Below are positions 29,359-40,631 of a stretch of DNA of 64,000 nucleotides, piece by piece; position 1 is the first letter of the stretch; the number at the start of each line of letters is the position of its first letter. The notes under the pieces were generated by a model. The model saw only the letters and a program-made list of their open reading frames with translations. It was not told where the DNA came from and ran no database searches. Source of the DNA: Nonomuraea antri (GTDB taxonomy: Bacteria > Actinomycetota > Actinomycetes > Streptosporangiales > Streptosporangiaceae). The DNA is taken from assembly GCF_013283785.1 (NCBI RefSeq), contig NZ_JABCPZ010000031.1:1-64000 (forward strand), written 5' to 3'. The position numbers and the translations under genes are program-made.

Positions 29359-29991
29359 ATGCCCGCAAACCCGATGATCCGGCTGACGTATGTCGTCTTC
29401 GCCGCGTCCGCCGCCCTCGTCCCGTTCACTCCGGCGGTCGCCGGGGCGAACGCCGACCTGACCACCCGCGTGACGGCTCAGGCCGTCAAGAGCGACGAGA
29501 AACCGCCGCTGGTGGCCGGTCGTGGCTGTCACGGACACCGCTGGTGCGGCGGCGGCTGGCGGCACTGGAACCACTGGCGTCCGTGGCACCGCGGCTGCCA
29601 CCACCGCTGCCACGGCCGGACCGGCCCGCAGGGTCCCCAGGGTCCGCAGGGCCCGGCGGGTCCGGCGGGGACCGCCGGCTCCAGCGTCGACACGGCCTTC
29701 CACGGCAACCGCAAGTTCGTCGCGCAGGCGCCCGGCGACGGCCGGACCCTGGTGCGCGACCCGCGCACCACGCCGACGTGGCACGACCTGTCGTCGATCG
29801 ACAACTACCCGGGCGGCGTCACGGGCGTCTCGCTGGCCAACAGGCTCGGGCGCCTGCACGTGACCGTGCGCACCGCGTCCGGGCAGGTCTTCCAGACGGA
29901 GTGCCGGCTCAACCCGACGCCGGGAACGGGCATGAACGATCCCTGGCCGGGCAACTGCAGCGACTTCATCGACCTGACCCCGCCCAACTGA
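29359..29991 (+). CDS. Secreted protein with His/Trp/Cys-rich and collagen-like segments
   Basis: 210 residues, with ATG 29359 after a GGAAG. A Sec signal peptide runs to about residue 31 (ending AVAGANA). Residues about 54-88 are extraordinarily rich in His, Trp, Cys and Gly (HGHRWCGGGWRHW, then WHRGCHHRCHGR): about nine His, six Trp and four Cys. Then comes a collagen-like Gly-x-y run, GPQGPQGPQGPAGPAG (about 91-106). The C-terminal 100 residues form a small domain with SSVDTAFHGNRKFVAQ and two Cys. The His/Cys block could bind copper or zinc (inference). The short collagen run could trimerise the protein only weakly. No family is recognised. Confidence 0.75.
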   Translation: MPANPMIRLTYVVFAASAALVPFTPAVAGANADLTTRVTAQAVKSDEKPPLVAGRGCHGHRWCGGGWRHWNHWRPWHRGCHHRCHGRTGPQGPQGPQGPAGPAGTAGSSVDTAFHGNRKFVAQAPGDGRTLVRDPRTTPTWHDLSSIDNYPGGVTGVSLANRLGRLHVTVRTASGQVFQTECRLNPTPGTGMNDPWPGNCSDFIDLTPPN

Positions 29992-31101: not shown

Positions 31102-31287
31102 CCGCCGGGACCCGTCGCTTGTGACCGTCAGGACCTCCGTCGTCCGGTTCGTGGGGTGATGTCAACGGCCGGTCGAGGATGGGTCAGCACTTCTCCGGCG
31201 GGTGCCGCGCCGTGCTCGGCGCCGCGTCCGCGAGGGCTAGACACGAAGTTGCGTTGATCTTCGTCGTGGTGGCCGGAGGAGGCACGG

Positions 31288-33081
31288 ATGTCGAACGCTG
31301 GACGGATCGTCACGGGCGCGGTGCTGGTCGCCGCGGCCGTCGTGCCTGGTCAGGCCGTCGCGGACCCGGGAAGGCCGCCGCAGGCCGCCCCGGATGCCCG
31401 GCCCGCGCCACCCGCGACGCGCTCCGCGGCCCAGCCGGTCGAGCTGGTGCTGACCGGCGGCGCGTTCTCCATCAGGGACGCCTTCGCCGTCCTCGACGGC
31501 CGTCCGCTGACGGTACGGCTCGCCCCCGCCGCCCGCGCCCGCATGACCCAGGCGCGCGAAGGCGCGCTCGCGGCGCTGGAGAGCCAGCGGGTCTACGGCT
31601 GGAACCAGGCGCTGGGCCCGCTGAAGGACCGTCCGCTGACCGTGGACGAGCAGCGGCTGTTCCAGCGCAACACGCTGCGCTCGCACGCCGCGGGCGTCGG
31701 CCCGGCCCTGCCAGACAACGTGGCGAGGCTGGCCCTGGTGCTCAAGGCCAACCAGATGGCCAGGGGGAAGGTGGGGGTCCGGCCGGAGGTGCCGGAACGC
31801 CTGCTGGCCATGGTCAACGCCGGTGTCGTGCCGGTCATGCCGCAGATCGGCTCGCTCGGCACCGGTGATCTGCAGCCGCAGGCGGCGGCCGGGCTGGCCG
31901 CGATCGGCGAGGACGCGCCGGTGCGTTACCGGGGCGGGCAGGGTCCGGCCTCGGCCATGTTGCCGCTGGCCGGGCTGCCCAGGGACTTCGTCCTGGAGGC
32001 GGGGGAGGCGTTGCCGATCATCAGCGGCAGCACGGTCGTGGCCGCGTCGCTGCTGCACGCCGTGCACCGCGCAGACGCGCTCGCCGACCAGGCGGAAGGC
32101 GCGTTCGCGCTGTTCCTGGAGGCGACCAGGGCCGAGCGCGGCTCACTCGACGGCCGCACGCACGCCGAGCGGCACATCCCGGAGGAGAACGCGATCGCCG
32201 CGCGGCTGCGCGCGCTGGTCGCCGGCTCGGGCTGGATGACCGAAGAGGGACGAAAGCGCCTCGACCCGGCCAACTACCACCCGCGTGTGCAGGACGCGGT
32301 GTCCGTTCGCGCCGCCCCGCACATCATGGCCGGGCTCAGGAAGGTGCTCGGCGACGCGCGCACGACCCTGATCAGGGAGGCCAACTCCTCGACCTCCAAC
32401 CCGCTGGTCTTCCGCCGCAAGGACGGCAAGGGCCACGAGTTCGTGATGGGCGGCAACTGGGACGGCTCCATCATGGGCCACACCGCCGACACGCTGAACG
32501 CGGAGATCGCCGACCTCGGCGTGCTCTCGCAGGAGCTGTCCGCACGGCTGCTGTCGCCGAGCTGGAGCTACGGCCTGCCGGCCAACCTGGCGGGCGGCGC
32601 GGTCGGCCTGAACTCCGGCCTGGTGCAGGTGCAGACCGTGGCCACCGCGCTGGTCCCGGAGATGCAGATACGCGCCACGCCCGCGGGGACGTTGTCACGC
32701 CCGGCCAAGAACGGCCAGGAGGACCACAACACGATGGCCATGGCCTCGGTCAGGAACCTGCACGCCAACCTCGACCGGCTGGAGACCGTGCTGGCGGTGC
32801 AGTTCCTCATGTCGGCCCAGGGCATCGACCTCATCGCGGCCCGGATGAGGCCGCTGCCGCTCGGCGTGGGCACCCGCTACCTGCACGCGCAGTTCAGGCG
32901 CTACGTCCGGCCGCTGGGCGACGACCGCTACCTGACCCCGGACCTGCTGCGCGCCACCTGGCTGGTGCGCAACAACCGCCTCCTGCCGCCGGCCCTGCCC
33001 ACGGCCAGTGCCAGGAAGGCGGGCGGCGTGAGGAAGGCGGCCAGTTCCAAGAAGGCGGGCGGCGCCAGCAAGGCGGCCTGA
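31288..33081 (+). CDS. Exported histidine/phenylalanine ammonia-lyase homologue with altered MIO triad
   Basis: 597 residues, with GGAGGAGG before ATG 31288. It aligns by eye along the whole HAL/PAL fold: Tyr103 in RVYGWNQ, LRSHAAGVG, GVRPEVPERLLAMVNAG, Arg341, and the NGQEDHNTM Glu near residue 480. Several active-site positions differ. The Ala-Ser-Gly triad that cyclises to MIO reads Gly191-Thr192-Gly193 (SLGTGDLQP). The usual Asn of INGT is Ser246, the usual Tyr of QDxYSxR is Val338 and GGNFHG is GGNWDG. It also has a Sec signal peptide (ending AVADPG), unlike cytoplasmic family members, and a Lys/Ala-rich C-terminal tail. It may be a non-canonical lyase or a non-enzymatic exported protein. 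It converges with pobA. Confidence 0.85.
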   Translation: MSNAGRIVTGAVLVAAAVVPGQAVADPGRPPQAAPDARPAPPATRSAAQPVELVLTGGAFSIRDAFAVLDGRPLTVRLAPAARARMTQAREGALAALESQRVYGWNQALGPLKDRPLTVDEQRLFQRNTLRSHAAGVGPALPDNVARLALVLKANQMARGKVGVRPEVPERLLAMVNAGVVPVMPQIGSLGTGDLQPQAAAGLAAIGEDAPVRYRGGQGPASAMLPLAGLPRDFVLEAGEALPIISGSTVVAASLLHAVHRADALADQAEGAFALFLEATRAERGSLDGRTHAERHIPEENAIAARLRALVAGSGWMTEEGRKRLDPANYHPRVQDAVSVRAAPHIMAGLRKVLGDARTTLIREANSSTSNPLVFRRKDGKGHEFVMGGNWDGSIMGHTADTLNAEIADLGVLSQELSARLLSPSWSYGLPANLAGGAVGLNSGLVQVQTVATALVPEMQIRATPAGTLSRPAKNGQEDHNTMAMASVRNLHANLDRLETVLAVQFLMSAQGIDLIAARMRPLPLGVGTRYLHAQFRRYVRPLGDDRYLTPDLLRATWLVRNNRLLPPALPTASARKAGGVRKAASSKKAGGASKAA

Positions 33082-34402: not shown

Positions 34403-37400
34403 TCAGCGAGCATGTCCAGGGCACACCTCCAGCGCCGGGAACTCCTTCAGGTGCCGCCGCCGCTCGCCGTCCGTGAGATCCCGGCCCACCCGGGCGCAGA
34501 CCGCCGCCGCGACCTGCGGCCCGGCGAGCGGATGCGCGAACAGCGCGCCGAGCCGGTCGATGCTGTACAGCCTGCTCCCGTCCGGGCTGAACGCCACGGA
34601 CGAGATCCCGCCCATGTGGTCGGCGGTGAGCGTGCCCAGGCTCAGGCCGGTGTCCGGCTCCCACAGCCGCACCCGGTGGTCGAGCCCGGCCGTGGCCAGC
34701 ACGGTCCCGTCCGGCGAGTACGCCAGCGCGGTGACGGCGTCGTCGTGGGCGTTCAGCACGTGACCGGTCGGGGCCAGGTCGGAGGTGGCGCGGAAGCGCA
34801 CCTGTCCATGCTGCGGGTCGCTCACGGCCAGCACCCGGCCGGCCGGATGGAAGGCGGTGAAGGGGCCGGGCGGGGCGTTCCTGCTCTGCGTGGGCTCCTC
34901 GACCCGGCCGGTACGCAGGTCCACCACCTTGGTGAAACCGGCGAAGGCCCACAGGCGGCGTGCGCCGGGGTCGAAGGCCAGGATCGCGCCGCCGACCTCG
35001 TCCAACGTCTTGACGCGGCGCTGGGCGGGCACGTCCCACAGCCACGTCCGCGAGGTGGTGAACGCGGAGACCGCGAGCGTGCGGCCGTCGGCGCTCAGGG
35101 CCAGCCCCCACGACCAGACCGGCTCGCCGCGCAGCTCACCCGCGGGGACCGAGCCGAGCAGGCGGCCGGCGGCCGTGTCCCAGAGCGCCACCGACGGCGG
35201 GTCGGCGACCACCACGGCCAGCACCCGTCCGTCGGCGTTGAGCGCGGTCACCGGCAGGCTCTCGACGCCCGGCGCGGTCGCCGTCATGCGCACGCCGGGA
35301 AGCGGGGCGCGCCGCGCCACGTCCACGACGTTCAGCTCCCAGGACTCGCCGCCGCCGCGCCAGGCCACCGCGAGCCGGCCGTCGTCCGACATCGGCCCGG
35401 CCGCGGCGGCGCCGGGCATGGCGAGCGGGGGGTGGGTGAAGCGTGAGACGTCGAGCGTCAGCACGGCCGACTGGTCGGTCAGCACGCGCAGCGTGCGATC
35501 GCCCGCGCCGAACGCCAGCGACCCGCTCTGCCCGCGCACCCGGTACCGCATCACCTCCGCGCCTTCGGCCGTGGTCCACAACCTGACCAGCCCGGACGAC
35601 GTGAGCCCCGCCACGAACCTGCCGTCACCGCTGAAGCGCACCTCGGCCAGCCCCGGCGTGGACGCGACCCGGCTGACGGTCTTGCCGGTGCCGACGTCCG
35701 TGACGGACATCGACGAGCCGTCCGTGGCGGCCAGCAGGCGCCCGGCCGGGCTGAAGTCGGCCGCGTGGACACCCGACTCCGGGTGGTACCGGTGCTCCTT
35801 GCCCGGCAGCGGCCGGGTCTTCCCGGAACGGACGTCCACCAGCCGCAGGCCCTGCTCGGCCGAGAGCACGGCCACCGCCAGCCGGCCGTCGGCGGAGACG
35901 ACCGCGGGCGGCAGGACGACCATCTTGCCGCGTTCGCGGTGGAACAGCCGGGTCCGGGTGCGCACGTCCCAGAACTCGACGCCGTCCCTGTCGATGGCCA
36001 GCACGCTGCCGTCGCGGCTGAAGCGCAGGTCCTCCGCGATGGTCACGCCCGCCCCCGACGGGCCGAAGGCCGGGCCCACCTGCTCGCCCGAGCCGATGTC
36101 CCACAGGCGCACGCCCGCCTCGTTGCCGATGACCAGCGTGCGGCCGTCCGGCGTGACCGTGACCTCCTGCTTGGGCAGGCGGTCGGCGGCGAGCGTGGTG
36201 TGCCGCCCGGTCTCCAGGTCCCACACCCGGACCGCGTGCGGCGGGTTCAGGTCGGTGGCCAGCAGGGTTCTGCCGTCCACCAGGTGGTAGACCGAGGCGT
36301 CGGCGTCGGCGCCCGGCTCGGTGAAGGCCGACAGCTCCCGCTGGCCGAGCGCGGCCGCCAGCCCGGCCCGCACCTCGCGCGACCCGGGGGCCAGCCGGTG
36401 CGCGGCGACCGAGAGCAGCATCGCCACCGCCGGGTCGGCCGCGCGCAGCGCCGCCGCCTCACCTGGCAGGCGGCGGCCCACCGCCTCCCTGAGCTGCCTG
36501 CTGACCGTCTCGCCCTGCTCGGCGATCGTCCGGCGCTGCTGGTCGACGACGAACACCGCGCCCAGCGAGATCAGCAGCAGCACGGCCAGCGCCGCGGTGA
36601 GCGTCCGCCTGCGCCTGGTCCGGGTCCTGCGGTGGGCGATGCAGGCCGCCAGGAAACCGCGTTCGACCGGGGTCAGCGGCAGGCGCTGCCGGCCGTCGGC
36701 CGCCCGTTCGAGCATCCGGTCGAGTGAGGTGCCCTGGTGGAGGTCGGCGGTCTTGGCGCCGTTGTCGCGCCACAGGCGGGCCGCGTTGCTCAGCTCGTGG
36801 TGCAGGCGCAGGCCGTCGCGGTCGGCGTCGACCCACTCGCGCAGCCGGGGCCAGGCGCGTAACAGCGCCGCGTTGGCCAGCATGACCGTGTCGTCCTGGC
36901 GGACGAGCAGCCCGTCGAACGCGGTCAGGACCCGCTCGGCGGTGTCCGGGTCGTCGCCGTGCAGCAGTTCGTCGGCGCCGGCCGGGCGCAGCACGTCGGC
37001 GGCCTGCTGCAGCGGGCTCACCAGGCGCAGCAGCAGGTGCGGCGCGAGCCGCCGGCCCGCCTCGTCCAGCCCGGCGTACGCCTGCTCGGCCAGGTCGGCG
37101 AGCGCGGGGTCGCCTTCGGCGTCCCGTGGCCGGACCTCGGCGGCGGCATCGCTGCCCGCCCGAAGCAAGTCCCCGCCGCCCGCGGGGGCCGCCTGGTCGA
37201 GGGACGGGTCATCGGGGGGTGCCTGGTCGAGGGGCGTGCCGGTGCCGCCCAGCAGCCCGCGCAGCAGCGTCTCCGCCGTCGGCCGCGCGGCCGGGTCCTT
37301 GCGCAGCGCGGCGGCCACCAGCGTGCGCAGCGGCTCGGCCAGCACGGACACGTCCGGATCCGCGGTGATCACCTGGTTCATCACGTAACCGAGGTGCTCG

Positions 37401-38035
37401 CCCTCGAACGGGTCGCGCCCGGTGGCCGCGAACAGCACCACCGCGCCCCACCCGTACACGTCGGCCGGCCGCCCGGCCCTGTCGCCGTGCAGCAGCTCCG
37501 GTGCCATGTACCGGGGCGTGCCCGCCACCTGCCGCGACGCGGTCAGCGACATGTCCTCGGTACGGGCGATGCCGAAGTCGATGACCCGCGGCCCGTCCGC
37601 GCCCAGCAGGACGTTCTCCGGCTTCAGATCCCGGTGGACCACGCCCGCCCGGTGGATGGCCAGCAGCGCGGTCGCGATGCCGATCGCCAGCCTGCGCAGG
37701 TCGTCGCCGGTGAAGACGGGCCCGCCGGCGACCGCCTGGCGCAGGCTGGGGCCTTCGACGTACTCGCTGACCAGGTACGGCCTGGCCCCCTCGCCGTCAC
37801 CGTCGCCGCCCACGGCCAGCACCCTGGCGGTGCAGAACGACGCCACCCGGCGCGTCGCGGTGACCTCCTTGTCCAGCCTGCTCATGGTCCCGTGCAGCAC
37901 CTTGACCGCCACCCGGGCGCCCGCCGCGTCGTACGCCTCGTACACCACGCCCTGGCCGCCCGCCCCCAGGCGGCCCGCGAGCCAGTAGTCCGCGATCTGC
38001 CGGGGGTCGCCCGGCAGCAGTGGAACGCGTCCCAT
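34403..38035 (-). CDS. Membrane serine/threonine kinase with WD40 beta-propeller sensor
   Basis: 1210 residues from ATG 38035 with GGGGGT upstream. The kinase domain (about 12-270) is complete: glycine loop GRLGAGGQGVVYEAYD, VAVKVLHG, catalytic HRDLKPENVLL, DFGIARTED and APELLHGD. Residues about 300-475 are a helical region like that of nSTAND-WD40 proteins (LREWVDADRDGLRLHHELSNAARLW). One membrane helix is at about 480-498, after a stop-transfer of arginines. Residues about 550-1200 form two WD40 propellers (for example YSPDGTVLATAGLDHRVRLWEP and FSPDGSRLYSIDRLG). The propellers are therefore probably outside and could sense a ligand or wall state. It is divergent from the PL8 lyase gene. 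Confidence 0.92.
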   Translation of the reverse strand: MGRVPLLPGDPRQIADYWLAGRLGAGGQGVVYEAYDAAGARVAVKVLHGTMSRLDKEVTATRRVASFCTARVLAVGGDGDGEGARPYLVSEYVEGPSLRQAVAGGPVFTGDDLRRLAIGIATALLAIHRAGVVHRDLKPENVLLGADGPRVIDFGIARTEDMSLTASRQVAGTPRYMAPELLHGDRAGRPADVYGWGAVVLFAATGRDPFEGEHLGYVMNQVITADPDVSVLAEPLRTLVAAALRKDPAARPTAETLLRGLLGGTGTPLDQAPPDDPSLDQAAPAGGGDLLRAGSDAAAEVRPRDAEGDPALADLAEQAYAGLDEAGRRLAPHLLLRLVSPLQQAADVLRPAGADELLHGDDPDTAERVLTAFDGLLVRQDDTVMLANAALLRAWPRLREWVDADRDGLRLHHELSNAARLWRDNGAKTADLHQGTSLDRMLERAADGRQRLPLTPVERGFLAACIAHRRTRTRRRRTLTAALAVLLLISLGAVFVVDQQRRTIAEQGETVSRQLREAVGRRLPGEAAALRAADPAVAMLLSVAAHRLAPGSREVRAGLAAALGQRELSAFTEPGADADASVYHLVDGRTLLATDLNPPHAVRVWDLETGRHTTLAADRLPKQEVTVTPDGRTLVIGNEAGVRLWDIGSGEQVGPAFGPSGAGVTIAEDLRFSRDGSVLAIDRDGVEFWDVRTRTRLFHRERGKMVVLPPAVVSADGRLAVAVLSAEQGLRLVDVRSGKTRPLPGKEHRYHPESGVHAADFSPAGRLLAATDGSSMSVTDVGTGKTVSRVASTPGLAEVRFSGDGRFVAGLTSSGLVRLWTTAEGAEVMRYRVRGQSGSLAFGAGDRTLRVLTDQSAVLTLDVSRFTHPPLAMPGAAAAGPMSDDGRLAVAWRGGGESWELNVVDVARRAPLPGVRMTATAPGVESLPVTALNADGRVLAVVVADPPSVALWDTAAGRLLGSVPAGELRGEPVWSWGLALSADGRTLAVSAFTTSRTWLWDVPAQRRVKTLDEVGGAILAFDPGARRLWAFAGFTKVVDLRTGRVEEPTQSRNAPPGPFTAFHPAGRVLAVSDPQHGQVRFRATSDLAPTGHVLNAHDDAVTALAYSPDGTVLATAGLDHRVRLWEPDTGLSLGTLTADHMGGISSVAFSPDGSRLYSIDRLGALFAHPLAGPQVAAAVCARVGRDLTDGERRRHLKEFPALEVCPGHAR

Positions 38036-38099
38036 CGACAACCCCCGTGATCGAGTTCCCTGACGTCTTTGATGCGGGAAAGCGGCGAGCGGTTGGACA

Positions 38100-38111: not shown

Positions 38112-38187
38112 TATCCGGCTTTACCGGAGCGCCGCAGTAAGGCGATGGAAAGCGGCAGAAAGATCGGGAAAGCCGTTGACGGCTTCG

Positions 38188-38199
38188 GAAAGCGCTTAC
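38188..38199. promoter_or_regulatory. LacI-like operator 2 before the PL8 lyase gene
   Basis: GAAAGCGCTTAC, core AAGCGCTT, 39 bases before the lyase start and 88 bases from operator 1. Further half-site-like GGAAAGC(C/G)G strings occur at about 38077, 38156 and 38167. Confidence 0.65.
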
Positions 38200-38237
38200 A
38201 TACTCTGCGTGCATCCCCCCACGTTGCAGGAGAGAGC

Positions 38238-40631
38238 ATGCCGTCCATTCGTCCAGGACGCCGGGCCTTCCTCGGCACGCTGGCCGCAGGCGCCGGCGCG
38301 GCGCTGCTCGGCGGCACCCCGGCCGCCGCCGACACGGCCACCCCCGCCACTGCCACCCCCGCCACCAATGCCGCCGCTCCCACGCCCGAGACGTACGCCG
38401 CGCTGCGCGCCAAGGCCGCCGCGCTCATCACCGGAGTCCCCTTCGACCCGGCGGACCCCGCCTTCGCCGCGCCGCTGGCCAGGCTGAACGCCGCCGCCAC
38501 CGAGCTGCGCGCCGGACTGAACACCGCCGCGGGCCGCACCTCGCTCTGGGCCGACCTGCCGCTGACCGGCGTGTCCGGCGACATCGCGAGCAGCTACCAG
38601 CGGCTGCGCACCCTGGCCGTCGCCTGGGCCACGCCCGGCTCGGCCCTGCACGGCGACGACACGCTGACCGCCGACCTACTCGGCGGGCTCGACTTCCTCC
38701 ACGCCCGCGCCTACAACGAGTCCAAGCGCGAGACCGGCAACTGGTGGCACTGGGAGATCGGCGCGCCCCGGGCGCTGATGGACACCTGCGTCCTCATGCA
38801 CGAGGTGATCAGCGATACGCAGCGGGCCGCCTGGATCAGGGCCGTCGACCGGTTCTGCCCCAACCCGGACCGCCGTACCAACCTCGCGAACTTCGCCGAG
38901 ACCGGCGCGAACCGGGCGGACAAGGCGCTGATCGTGGCGCTGCGCGGCGCGGTCGGCGACGAGCCGGCCAAGCTGGCGCTCGCCCGCGACGGCCTGTCCG
39001 ACGTGCGCGACGGCGGCCGGCGCACCCTGTTCGGCTACGTCAGCTCGGGCGACGGCTACTACGCCGACGGCTCGTTCATCCAGCACGACGTGGTGGCCTA
39101 CACCGGCTCGTACGGCGTGGTGCTGCTGCAGTCGGTCAGCGCCGTGCTCGGCCTGCTCGGCGGCTCGCCCTGGCAGGTCACCGACCCGGCCGTGGCCGTC
39201 GTGCTCGACGCGGTCGAACGCACCTACGCGCCGTGGATCCACGACGGCCTGATGATGGACAGCGTGCGCGGCCGGGCGGTGTCACGGCAGTTCAACCGCG
39301 ACTCCGACGCCGGACGCGACACCGTGGACGCCATCCTGCAACTCGCCGCCGGCGCGCCCGAGCCGTACGCCACCCGGTTCCGCTGCCTGGCCAAGGGCTG
39401 GATCGAGCGGGGTGAGTTCCTGGCGAGCGCCGGGATCGCCGCCACCGCCAGGGCCGGCGCCGTGCTCGCCGACGCCCGGCTCACCCCGGTGCCCAGGCCC
39501 ACCGCGCACCACGTGTTCGCGGCCATGGACCGGGTCGTGCACCGCCGTCCGGGCTGGTCGATGGCGCTCAGCCTGTCGTCGAGACGCATCGCCATGTACG
39601 AGTGCGGCAACGGCGAGAACTACCGGGCCTGGTACCAGGGCGACGGCGTCACCTACCTGCACACCGACACCGGGCACTACGCCGACGACTACTGGCCGAC
39701 GGTGAACTCCTACCGGCTGCCTGGCACCACCGTCGACACCAGGCACCGCGACCCGGCGGTCTCGTCCGGCGGCACCGGCACGTTCCGCCCGGCCAACGCC
39801 TGGGCCGGCGGCGTCGCGGCGGGCACGTACGGGCTGGCGAGCCTCGACCTGATGGCGGCGGGCACCACGCTGCGGGCCAGGAAGAGCTGGGTGTTCCTGG
39901 ACGACGCGGTGGTCTGCCTGGGCGCGGGCATCACCAGCGGCGACGGCCGCCCGATCGAGACGGTCGTGGAGAACCGGGGCACCACCGCCGAGCTGACCAC
40001 CGGCCAGGACGGACGCTGGGCGCACCTCGACGGCGTCGGCGGCTACGTCTTCCCGTCCGGTTCGAGCGGGCTGCGCACGCTGCGCGAGCGGCGTGCCGAC
40101 AGCTGGCGGGCGATCAACGACGGCGCCTCGACTGGCGGCGGGAACGGGCAGGTGGCACGCGACTACGTCACGCTCTGGCTGGACCACGGCGCGAACCCGG
40201 CGAACGCGGCCTACGCCTACATCCTGCTGCCGACCGCGAGCCTGGCGCAGACCGAGGCGTTCGACCGGGCCGAGGTGCTGGCCAACACCGCCGAGGTGCA
40301 GGCCGTGCGCGCGCACGGCAGATCGGTCGGCCGGGGCGTCCTGCTCGCGGCCACGTTCTGGGCGGCGGGCGCGGCGGGCGGCGTGACCGCGAGCGCGCCG
40401 TGCGCGGTGCTGGTCAGGCAGGCGGCCGGCCGGATCACGGTGGCGGTCTCCGACCCGGGCCGTACGGTGAGCGGCGTGACCGTCACGCTCGACCACCCGG
40501 CGCACCGCCTGATCGCGGCCGACCCGACGGTCACCGTGGTGCCGGGGGAGCGCCCGGCGATCACGGTGAACCTGGCCGGGTCGCGCGGCCGTACGCACAC
40601 CGCCGAACTGGCGGTCGGCCGCGGCGCCTGA
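38238..40631 (+). CDS. PL8-family polysaccharide lyase (hyaluronate/chondroitin/xanthan lyase type), Tat-exported
   Basis: 797 residues from ATG 38238 with AGGAGA upstream. The N-terminus is Tat-like (RPGRRAFLGTLAAGAGAALL), followed by an Ala/Thr/Pro linker to about 55. The alpha-toroid domain (about 60-390) has the aromatic patch NWWHWEIG near 168, the catalytic Asn225 in TGANR, His283 in DGSFIQHD, Tyr292 in TGSYG and the Arg region VRGRAVSRQFNRDSD. A beta-sandwich C-terminus follows. The enzyme cleaves uronic-acid polysaccharides by beta-elimination outside the cell. Two AAGCGCTT operators upstream point to sugar-controlled expression. Confidence 0.9.
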   Translation: MPSIRPGRRAFLGTLAAGAGAALLGGTPAAADTATPATATPATNAAAPTPETYAALRAKAAALITGVPFDPADPAFAAPLARLNAAATELRAGLNTAAGRTSLWADLPLTGVSGDIASSYQRLRTLAVAWATPGSALHGDDTLTADLLGGLDFLHARAYNESKRETGNWWHWEIGAPRALMDTCVLMHEVISDTQRAAWIRAVDRFCPNPDRRTNLANFAETGANRADKALIVALRGAVGDEPAKLALARDGLSDVRDGGRRTLFGYVSSGDGYYADGSFIQHDVVAYTGSYGVVLLQSVSAVLGLLGGSPWQVTDPAVAVVLDAVERTYAPWIHDGLMMDSVRGRAVSRQFNRDSDAGRDTVDAILQLAAGAPEPYATRFRCLAKGWIERGEFLASAGIAATARAGAVLADARLTPVPRPTAHHVFAAMDRVVHRRPGWSMALSLSSRRIAMYECGNGENYRAWYQGDGVTYLHTDTGHYADDYWPTVNSYRLPGTTVDTRHRDPAVSSGGTGTFRPANAWAGGVAAGTYGLASLDLMAAGTTLRARKSWVFLDDAVVCLGAGITSGDGRPIETVVENRGTTAELTTGQDGRWAHLDGVGGYVFPSGSSGLRTLRERRADSWRAINDGASTGGGNGQVARDYVTLWLDHGANPANAAYAYILLPTASLAQTEAFDRAEVLANTAEVQAVRAHGRSVGRGVLLAATFWAAGAAGGVTASAPCAVLVRQAAGRITVAVSDPGRTVSGVTVTLDHPAHRLIAADPTVTVVPGERPAITVNLAGSRGRTHTAELAVGRGA

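Follow-up and report, generated by a model that had tools for sequence, protein, structure and literature searches.

A probable ergothionase-like branch of the histidine ammonia-lyase family, predicted to be exported, in Nonomuraea antri

Introduction

The 64,000-nucleotide stretch of the soil actinomycete Nonomuraea antri studied here (contig NZ_JABCPZ010000031.1, positions 1 to 64,000; hereafter the window) carries a gene for a protein of the histidine and phenylalanine ammonia-lyase (HAL/PAL) family, with a signal peptide and without the Ala-Ser-Gly triad that forms the 4-methylideneimidazole-5-one (MIO) electrophile (Table 1). What reaction could such a protein carry out, and where? The original prediction assumed that known family members are cytoplasmic and need MIO, and it offered a new extracellular enzyme type, an aminomutase-like variant or a pseudo-enzyme. 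The assumption fails on both counts: ergothionase, a PF00221 enzyme that removes trimethylamine from ergothioneine, lacks MIO according to PMC13405746 (citing Maurer 2019), and a Burkholderia/Serratia group of short-looped lyases mostly has signal-peptide-like N termini.

We propose, with a probability of roughly 0.66, that the window lyase is an exported HAL/PAL-fold enzyme whose MIO electrophile has been lost and which, like ergothionase, uses acid/base catalysis to remove trimethylamine from a quaternary histidine-type betaine. The function proposed rests on the gene linkage of its relatives and on its residues.

Active site and family assignment

The window lyase belongs to PF00221 (Lyase_aromatic), with 381.8 bits against a cut-off of 27.3. 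Its homologue set is the best 120 listed of 689 matches, the window lyase included, and counts out of 120 refer to this set unless another group is named. The MIO triad is altered, as had been predicted, but not by a plain exchange of Ala-Ser-Gly for Gly-Thr-Gly: a deletion accompanies the change (GSLG-TG-DL against GSLGCSGDL), leaving the Gly188-Leu195 loop one residue short. It has eight residues in all 120 homologues and nine in three MIO-type paralogues of the same genome (L001, L002 and L003).

The features said to be retained are all present, namely the PF00221 fold match, Tyr103, the RSHAAGVG motif, Arg341 and Glu478, and so are the substitutions of Asn by Ser246, of the QDxYSxR Tyr by Val338 and of NFHG by NWDG. 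Eight residues are invariant in 120/120 (Tyr103, Lys113, Ser246, Gln335, Arg341, Lys474, Glu478 and Asn481), while at position 133, which corresponds to HutH His83, 109 have His, 9 Asn and 2 Thr. Lys474 is replaced only in L051 (by Met) among the loci with a readable site. Judged from the sequences, this invariant set looks like that of a functional enzyme whose chemistry has changed.

Compared with HutH (Pseudomonas putida 1eb4 and 1b8f; L001 of the same genome), the window lyase lacks the ASG/CSG triad, is predicted to be exported and carries Ser for Asn195, Val for Tyr280 and Trp-Asp for Phe329-His. Its eight-residue loop, GSLGTGDL, has no A/C-S-G in a nine-residue frame, and it reaches 305.2 bits where the hutH equivalog requires 539.15. 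The database name histidine ammonia-lyase is very probably wrong for this protein. Scores for the MIO aminomutases are also far below their cut-offs (221 against 501 bits for tyrosine, 157 against 800 for phenylalanine), and the triad is absent; to our knowledge the aminomutases of the HAL/PAL family all use MIO, which makes an aminomutase-like variant unlikely.

In the proposed reaction trimethylamine would be eliminated, turning ergothioneine into thiourocanate, hercynine into urocanate, or a near relative into the matching product. The quaternary amine would already be a good leaving group, and MIO would not be needed. Tyr103 would take the role of base at the beta carbon and Arg341 would bind the carboxylate. 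The charge otherwise given by MIO would come from Lys113 and Lys474. The window's own subgroup would use the same substrate as its ert-linked relatives, and the enzyme would act outside the cell. The active site of the HAL/PAL fold is assembled from several subunits, so the monomer AlphaFold2 model cannot place that of the window lyase; its residues 471-480 have a mean predicted local distance difference test (pLDDT) score of 58.

Comparison with ergothionase and other MIO-less lyases

The ergothionase of Treponema denticola (PDB 6s7j, 6s7q) is 23-24% identical to the window lyase. It shares with it the HAL fold, a short loop (SIG-EG-DI), a Lys ten residues after the catalytic Tyr (Tyr+10; YGLNRGVGWNKD against YGWNQALGPLKD with Lys113), a Ser at the HutH Asn195 position and the Glu of xEDH. 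The loop likeness is one of length, from which the absence of MIO would follow. The short loop, the Tyr+10 Lys and the Ser for Asn occur in none of ten MIO-type alignment rows, nor in the three MIO paralogues of the window's own genome. There are also differences: the crystallised Treponema chain, as printed, starts at the domain without a signal peptide, whereas the window lyase has one, and the Lys of the ergothionase GTIQK motif corresponds to Thr450 in the window lyase, whose Lys474 corresponds to Ala in ergothionase. We take the GTIQK Lys to be a catalytic residue of ergothionase. Since it is missing, and since the phylogeny brings no decision, the window lyase is not filed in the Treponema-type family; as far as sequence comparison goes, it is best read as belonging to a new branch of ergothionase-like lyases that do without MIO and are mostly exported.

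Two further groups, each about 28% identical to the window lyase, have part of its features. In the Rhizobium-type lyase of step 1 of ergothioneine catabolism (L067:1199-2770), the short loop is found in 120/120 and the Tyr+10 Lys in 119/120 listed homologues; the HutH-Asn position is Ser in four of five aligned rows and Ala in the fifth, but a signal-peptide-like N terminus occurs in only 5/120. The Burkholderia/Serratia-type lyase (L068:10993-12621) has Ser at the HutH-Asn position; among its listed homologues the short loop occurs in 120/120, NKD at Tyr+9 to +11 in 116 and a signal-peptide-like N terminus in 99. It differs from the window lyase in keeping the GTIQK-type Lys and in clustering with canonical ergothionases in the quick tree; in B. 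arboris its gene adjoins that of a thiourocanate hydratase (1040 bits).

The window's own genome encodes a second short-loop PF00221 protein, apparently cytoplasmic (L005:1479-2801, identical to L070:10228-11553 on contig C221), with the motifs GAIG-TG-DL, YGRSTGVGANKD and FISSG and no ert neighbours seen. Five more genes of this type lie in five other actinomycete genomes (L092, L093, L097, L098, L100). The short loop and the Ser also occur in L005-type proteins, but the Tyr+10 Lys is replaced by Arg in 4/5 of those read in other genomes. In two Sciscionella genomes, PF00221 proteins adjoining an L005-type gene (L088:1171-2988 and L089:1171-2991) present a broken loop, GSVG-YLG-PEAH. They keep HAL-type Asn and Tyr (NGT, QDTYSLR) and appear to be another MIO-less kind, not ergothionase-like. 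A lost triad alone is therefore not diagnostic, and it is the three features together that count.

Gene neighbourhoods and ergothioneine catabolism

One pattern scan of a species-genome collection, of a kind that finds close relatives only, yielded loci from 58 relatives, each of them named as an actinobacterium. In 10 of the 58 the lyase gene stands beside genes for ErtB (thiourocanate hydratase) and ErtC (thiohydantoin desulfurase), and in eight of these ten ErtD, an IclR regulator and ErtE are also present. Amycolatopsis, Allokutzneria and two Sciscionella share the order ErtD-IclR-ErtB-ErtC-ErtE-major facilitator superfamily (MFS) transporter-lyase on the same strand. Against NCBIfam, the ErtE of L036 is over its cut-off (529 against 520), the other ert names being best matches below cut-off; as a positive control, all four names (thiourocanate hydratase, desulfurase, ErtD and ErtE) are over cut-off in a Rhizobium cluster with a canonical lyase. 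Each of the ten ErtB-like proteins matches thiourocanate hydratase (697-712 bits) better than HutU (562-605).

A whole-genome search for the desulfurase covered 50 of the 58 genomes, eight Nonomuraea being left out. It gave ten strong ErtC genes (348-369 bits, the next match at 99), one per ert-linked genome, all within 10 kb of the lyase and with contig coordinates matching the lyase flanks when compared by hand; no strong desulfurase was found in the other 40 of the 50 genomes. A search for PF00221 in the ten ert-linked genomes and that of L051 gave 32 matches, all of which were read, one being the lyase of L048 itself. Both Rothia genomes have no PF00221 gene besides the clade lyase, and those of L040 and L050 have just a HutH in addition. 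The genomes of L036, L044, L052 and L057 also hold an L005-type gene, and those of L044 and L057 a GSVGYLG protein as well. Thus, four of the ten ert-linked genomes have no MIO-less candidate other than the clade lyase, which in all ten is the one beside the ert genes.

The window lyase itself is not beside ErtB-ErtE genes. Its neighbours (MerR, L,D-transpeptidase, flavin adenine dinucleotide (FAD) monooxygenase, kinase-WD40 and polysaccharide lyase 8) gave no functional hint. For unlinked members, a gene family found within 4 kb is shared by five loci at most, as counted with our own open reading frame (ORF) caller, by which some genes are missed; flanks are short at L037, L038, L046 and some other unlinked loci.

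The two Rothia metagenome-assembled genomes (L053 and L061, about 2.1-2.2 Mb) carry ErtB, ErtC and the lyase, with no EgtD match and no other PF00221 gene, and are candidate ergothioneine consumers. The Pseudonocardia eucalypti genome of L048 also encodes a Burkholderia-like, exported ergothionase-like lyase (L096; G428:C1:3235728-3237203, minus strand) with the motifs YGLTVGVGQNKD, GTVG-ES-DI and GAVQKTF; a C-terminal hydrophobic segment and an RYRRQ end suggest that it is perhaps membrane-anchored. In the Pseudonocardia acaciae genome of L058 (G438:C22), L106:570-2435 encodes a PF00221 protein with a signal peptide and a short loop (GSPG-EG-DL); its catalytic loop has YW in place of the YG motif.

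Export across the clade

The N terminus of the window lyase reads MSNAGRIVTGAVLVAAAVVPGQAVA up to the predicted cleavage point, followed by DP. A Shine-Dalgarno-like GGAGGAGG precedes the ATG, which makes it unlikely that the predicted signal peptide is an artefact of start choice. Besides the window lyase, 48 of the 58 loci passed the signal-peptide scan, although the pass of L053 looks spurious. L048, L050, L052, L058 and L061 have no signal peptide and form one group with L053 (support 100), all ert-linked; the other loci missed (L026, L038, L060, L062, L063) are partial or start at the domain. Export is the common state of the clade, and its absence needs one change on the tree.

The scan is loose, as its version allowing any M/V/L start also passes 294/825 neighbour genes and 4/20 paralogue rows; these four include L096, which looks exported, and two of the rows duplicate a neighbouring gene. 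In a fairer control it was passed by 86/120 clade proteins against 5/120 Rhizobium-type lyases, and by 108/120 against 6/120 when no charge was required. With 99/120 in the Burkholderia/Serratia group, MIO-less lyases that are exported by prediction are not confined to the window clade.

The expected co-occurrence of triad and signal peptide holds in that there is one clade, but it is not strict, as six ert-linked members are short-looped without a convincing signal peptide. There is broad support for the predicted new type of extracellular enzyme: the clade is conserved and mostly exported, with its own active-site set and no ordinary route to MIO.

That export protects the cell's own ergothioneine was considered as a rule and found unsupported: EgtD is over the cut-off in 45/50 of the relatives' genomes, but also in 43/98 genomes of the class, with 14/15 among those of at least 7 Mb, and four of the six cytoplasmic clade members are in EgtD-positive genomes.

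Phylogeny

The window clade forms one group with full support in trees with and without the diagnostic columns. In the quick tree the clade lies with the MIO enzymes, apart from known ergothionases and L005-type proteins (support 95), but the deep nodes are unsupported once the diagnostic columns are removed. Approximately unbiased (AU) tests reject none of three groupings: the clade with canonical ergothionases (p 0.38), all MIO-less proteins together (p 0.331) and the clade joined with HutH (p 0.254). One loss of MIO and two losses both fit the trees. In a class-wide search, with only three candidates scored per genome in the rows shown, the clade was found at E 1e-90 in 1 of 394 genomes, the window's own.

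A more speculative scenario, which we consider doubtful, is that the clade lost MIO independently and converged on the short loop, the Tyr+10 Lys and the change from Asn to Ser, with the second lysine moved to Lys474, and that the exported Val338 branch would destroy ergothioneine or another betaine outside ergothioneine-making cells. Literature searches showed no description of such a division of compartments in antioxidant metabolism, and one joining ergothionase with signal peptide gave no match.

Alternative explanations and the substrate

That the protein is an inactive pseudo-enzyme, retained for binding outside the cell, would agree with the loss of the classical HAL MIO loop, Asn and Tyr; it is very improbable, given that Tyr103, Lys113, Ser246, Gln335, Arg341, Lys474 and Glu478 are invariant in 120/120 and that ten relatives adjoin later genes of the catabolic pathway whose first step they would supply. 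Hardly any credit goes to a modified MIO, with ethylidene for methylidene, built from Gly191-Thr192-Gly193 in what would still be an ammonia-lyase or aminomutase. Position 192 is Thr or Ser in 108/120 (Thr 103, Ser 5), as this would need, but Ile (10) or Val (2) in the other 12, so an MIO made from threonine could not hold for the whole clade; every homologue also has the loop shortened by one residue and Ser for the HutH Asn.

The Val338 subgroup, with the window lyase, may be a betaine lyase of another specificity, for example a hercynine lyase making urocanate for the Hut pathway, which we regard as possible but rather unlikely. All 10 ert-linked sequences have Thr338. Of the 46 unlinked ones with a readable site, 43 have Val338, the window lyase among them, and the three with Thr338 are Nocardia. 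The association of Thr338 with ert linkage gives a Fisher p of 8e-9, which is pseudo-replicated: over 19 clade rows the tree has two changes of Thr338 and three of ert linkage, with too few independent pairs for a test, and the Val/Thr split thus rests on few independent changes. The one Val338 member with informative neighbours, that of Tamaricihabitans halophyticus (L051, 3757-11584), adjoins true HutU (675 bits) and HutI (325 bits), the lyase and HutU being separated by an MFS gene, and this neighbourhood suggests a pathway from hercynine to urocanate. However, the L051 lyase has Met for Lys474 and has lost the His of QEDH, both of which the window lyase keeps, and unlinked members share no widely conserved neighbour. 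The window's genome has EgtD (369 bits; ergothioneine biosynthesis) and a true HutU, and a genome search found no real desulfurase in it; both ergothioneine and hercynine are therefore possible substrates. With the Thr338 and Val338 subgroups, the question of the substrate can be put to a direct test.

Under the proposed ergothionase-like reading, many entries named histidine ammonia-lyase probably do not deaminate histidine. In the three MIO-less groups (120 listed proteins each), names, where given, are mostly HAL, PAL or aromatic lyase, and the combination of short loop and Tyr+10 Lys is a marker of them. A recent paper, PMC13405746, judges ergothionase not widely distributed after BLAST returned only HAL, PAL and tyrosine ammonia-lyase (TAL) names, and itself warns that divergent homologues could be missed. 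The window clade, including the two Rothia genomes, is a place where some ergothionase may hide, and since one form is exported, it may be asked which organisms degrade extracellular ergothioneine.

Features of the gene and other genes of the window

Twelve tail columns (579 and 587-597) are gaps in 110-118 of 120 homologues. The Lys/Ala tail is nearly private to the window lyase and therefore uninformative on function, and the suggestion that it binds wall or DNA finds no support.

Table 1. Coordinates of the lyase gene and its features in the window (pTM, predicted template modelling score)
Feature	Position	Strand	Evidence
Coding sequence, MIO-less HAL/PAL-family lyase, predicted exported, 597 amino acids	31288..33081	+	ORF; PF00221 381.8 bits; AlphaFold2 pLDDT 84.7, pTM 0.84
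Shine-Dalgarno-like GGAGGAGG, 5' of ATG	31275..31282	+	Sequence
Sec-type signal peptide, residues 1-25, predicted cleavage after AVA	31288..31362	+	Hydrophobic core GAVLVAAAVV, mean hydropathy 2.74
YGWNQALGPLKD, residues 103-114: Tyr103, Lys113 (Tyr+10)	31594..31629	+	Both in 120/120 homologues
Shortened MIO loop GSLG-TG-DL, residues 188-195	31849..31872	+	8 residues in 120/120; 9 in L001, L002, L003
Ser246, HutH Asn195 position	32023..32025	+	Ser in 120/120 homologues
Val338 (HutH Tyr280 position) to Arg341	32299..32310	+	Val in 111/120; Thr in 10/10 ert-linked loci
Trp391-Asp392 (HutH Phe-His of NFHG)	32458..32463	+	W 112, Y 8; D 117 of 120
Thr450, position of ergothionase GTIQK Lys	32635..32637	+	T 105, S 14, A 1 of 120
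Lys474 (clade-specific) and Glu478 (HutH Glu414)	32707..32721	+	Both 120/120
Lys/Ala-rich C-terminal tail, unconserved	33007..33078	+	Gap columns in most homologues; pLDDT <50 from 585

Three other genes of the window may be mentioned. The product of 29359-29991 (+) begins like a signal peptide, is rich in His, Trp and Gly over one stretch, contains a short collagen-like run of GPQGPQGPQGPAGPAG and has no Pfam match; 34403-38041 (-) encodes a fusion of a Ser/Thr protein kinase with nSTAND1-like and WD40 repeats; and 38145-40631 (+) encodes a polysaccharide lyase family 8 protein with a twin-arginine-like start.
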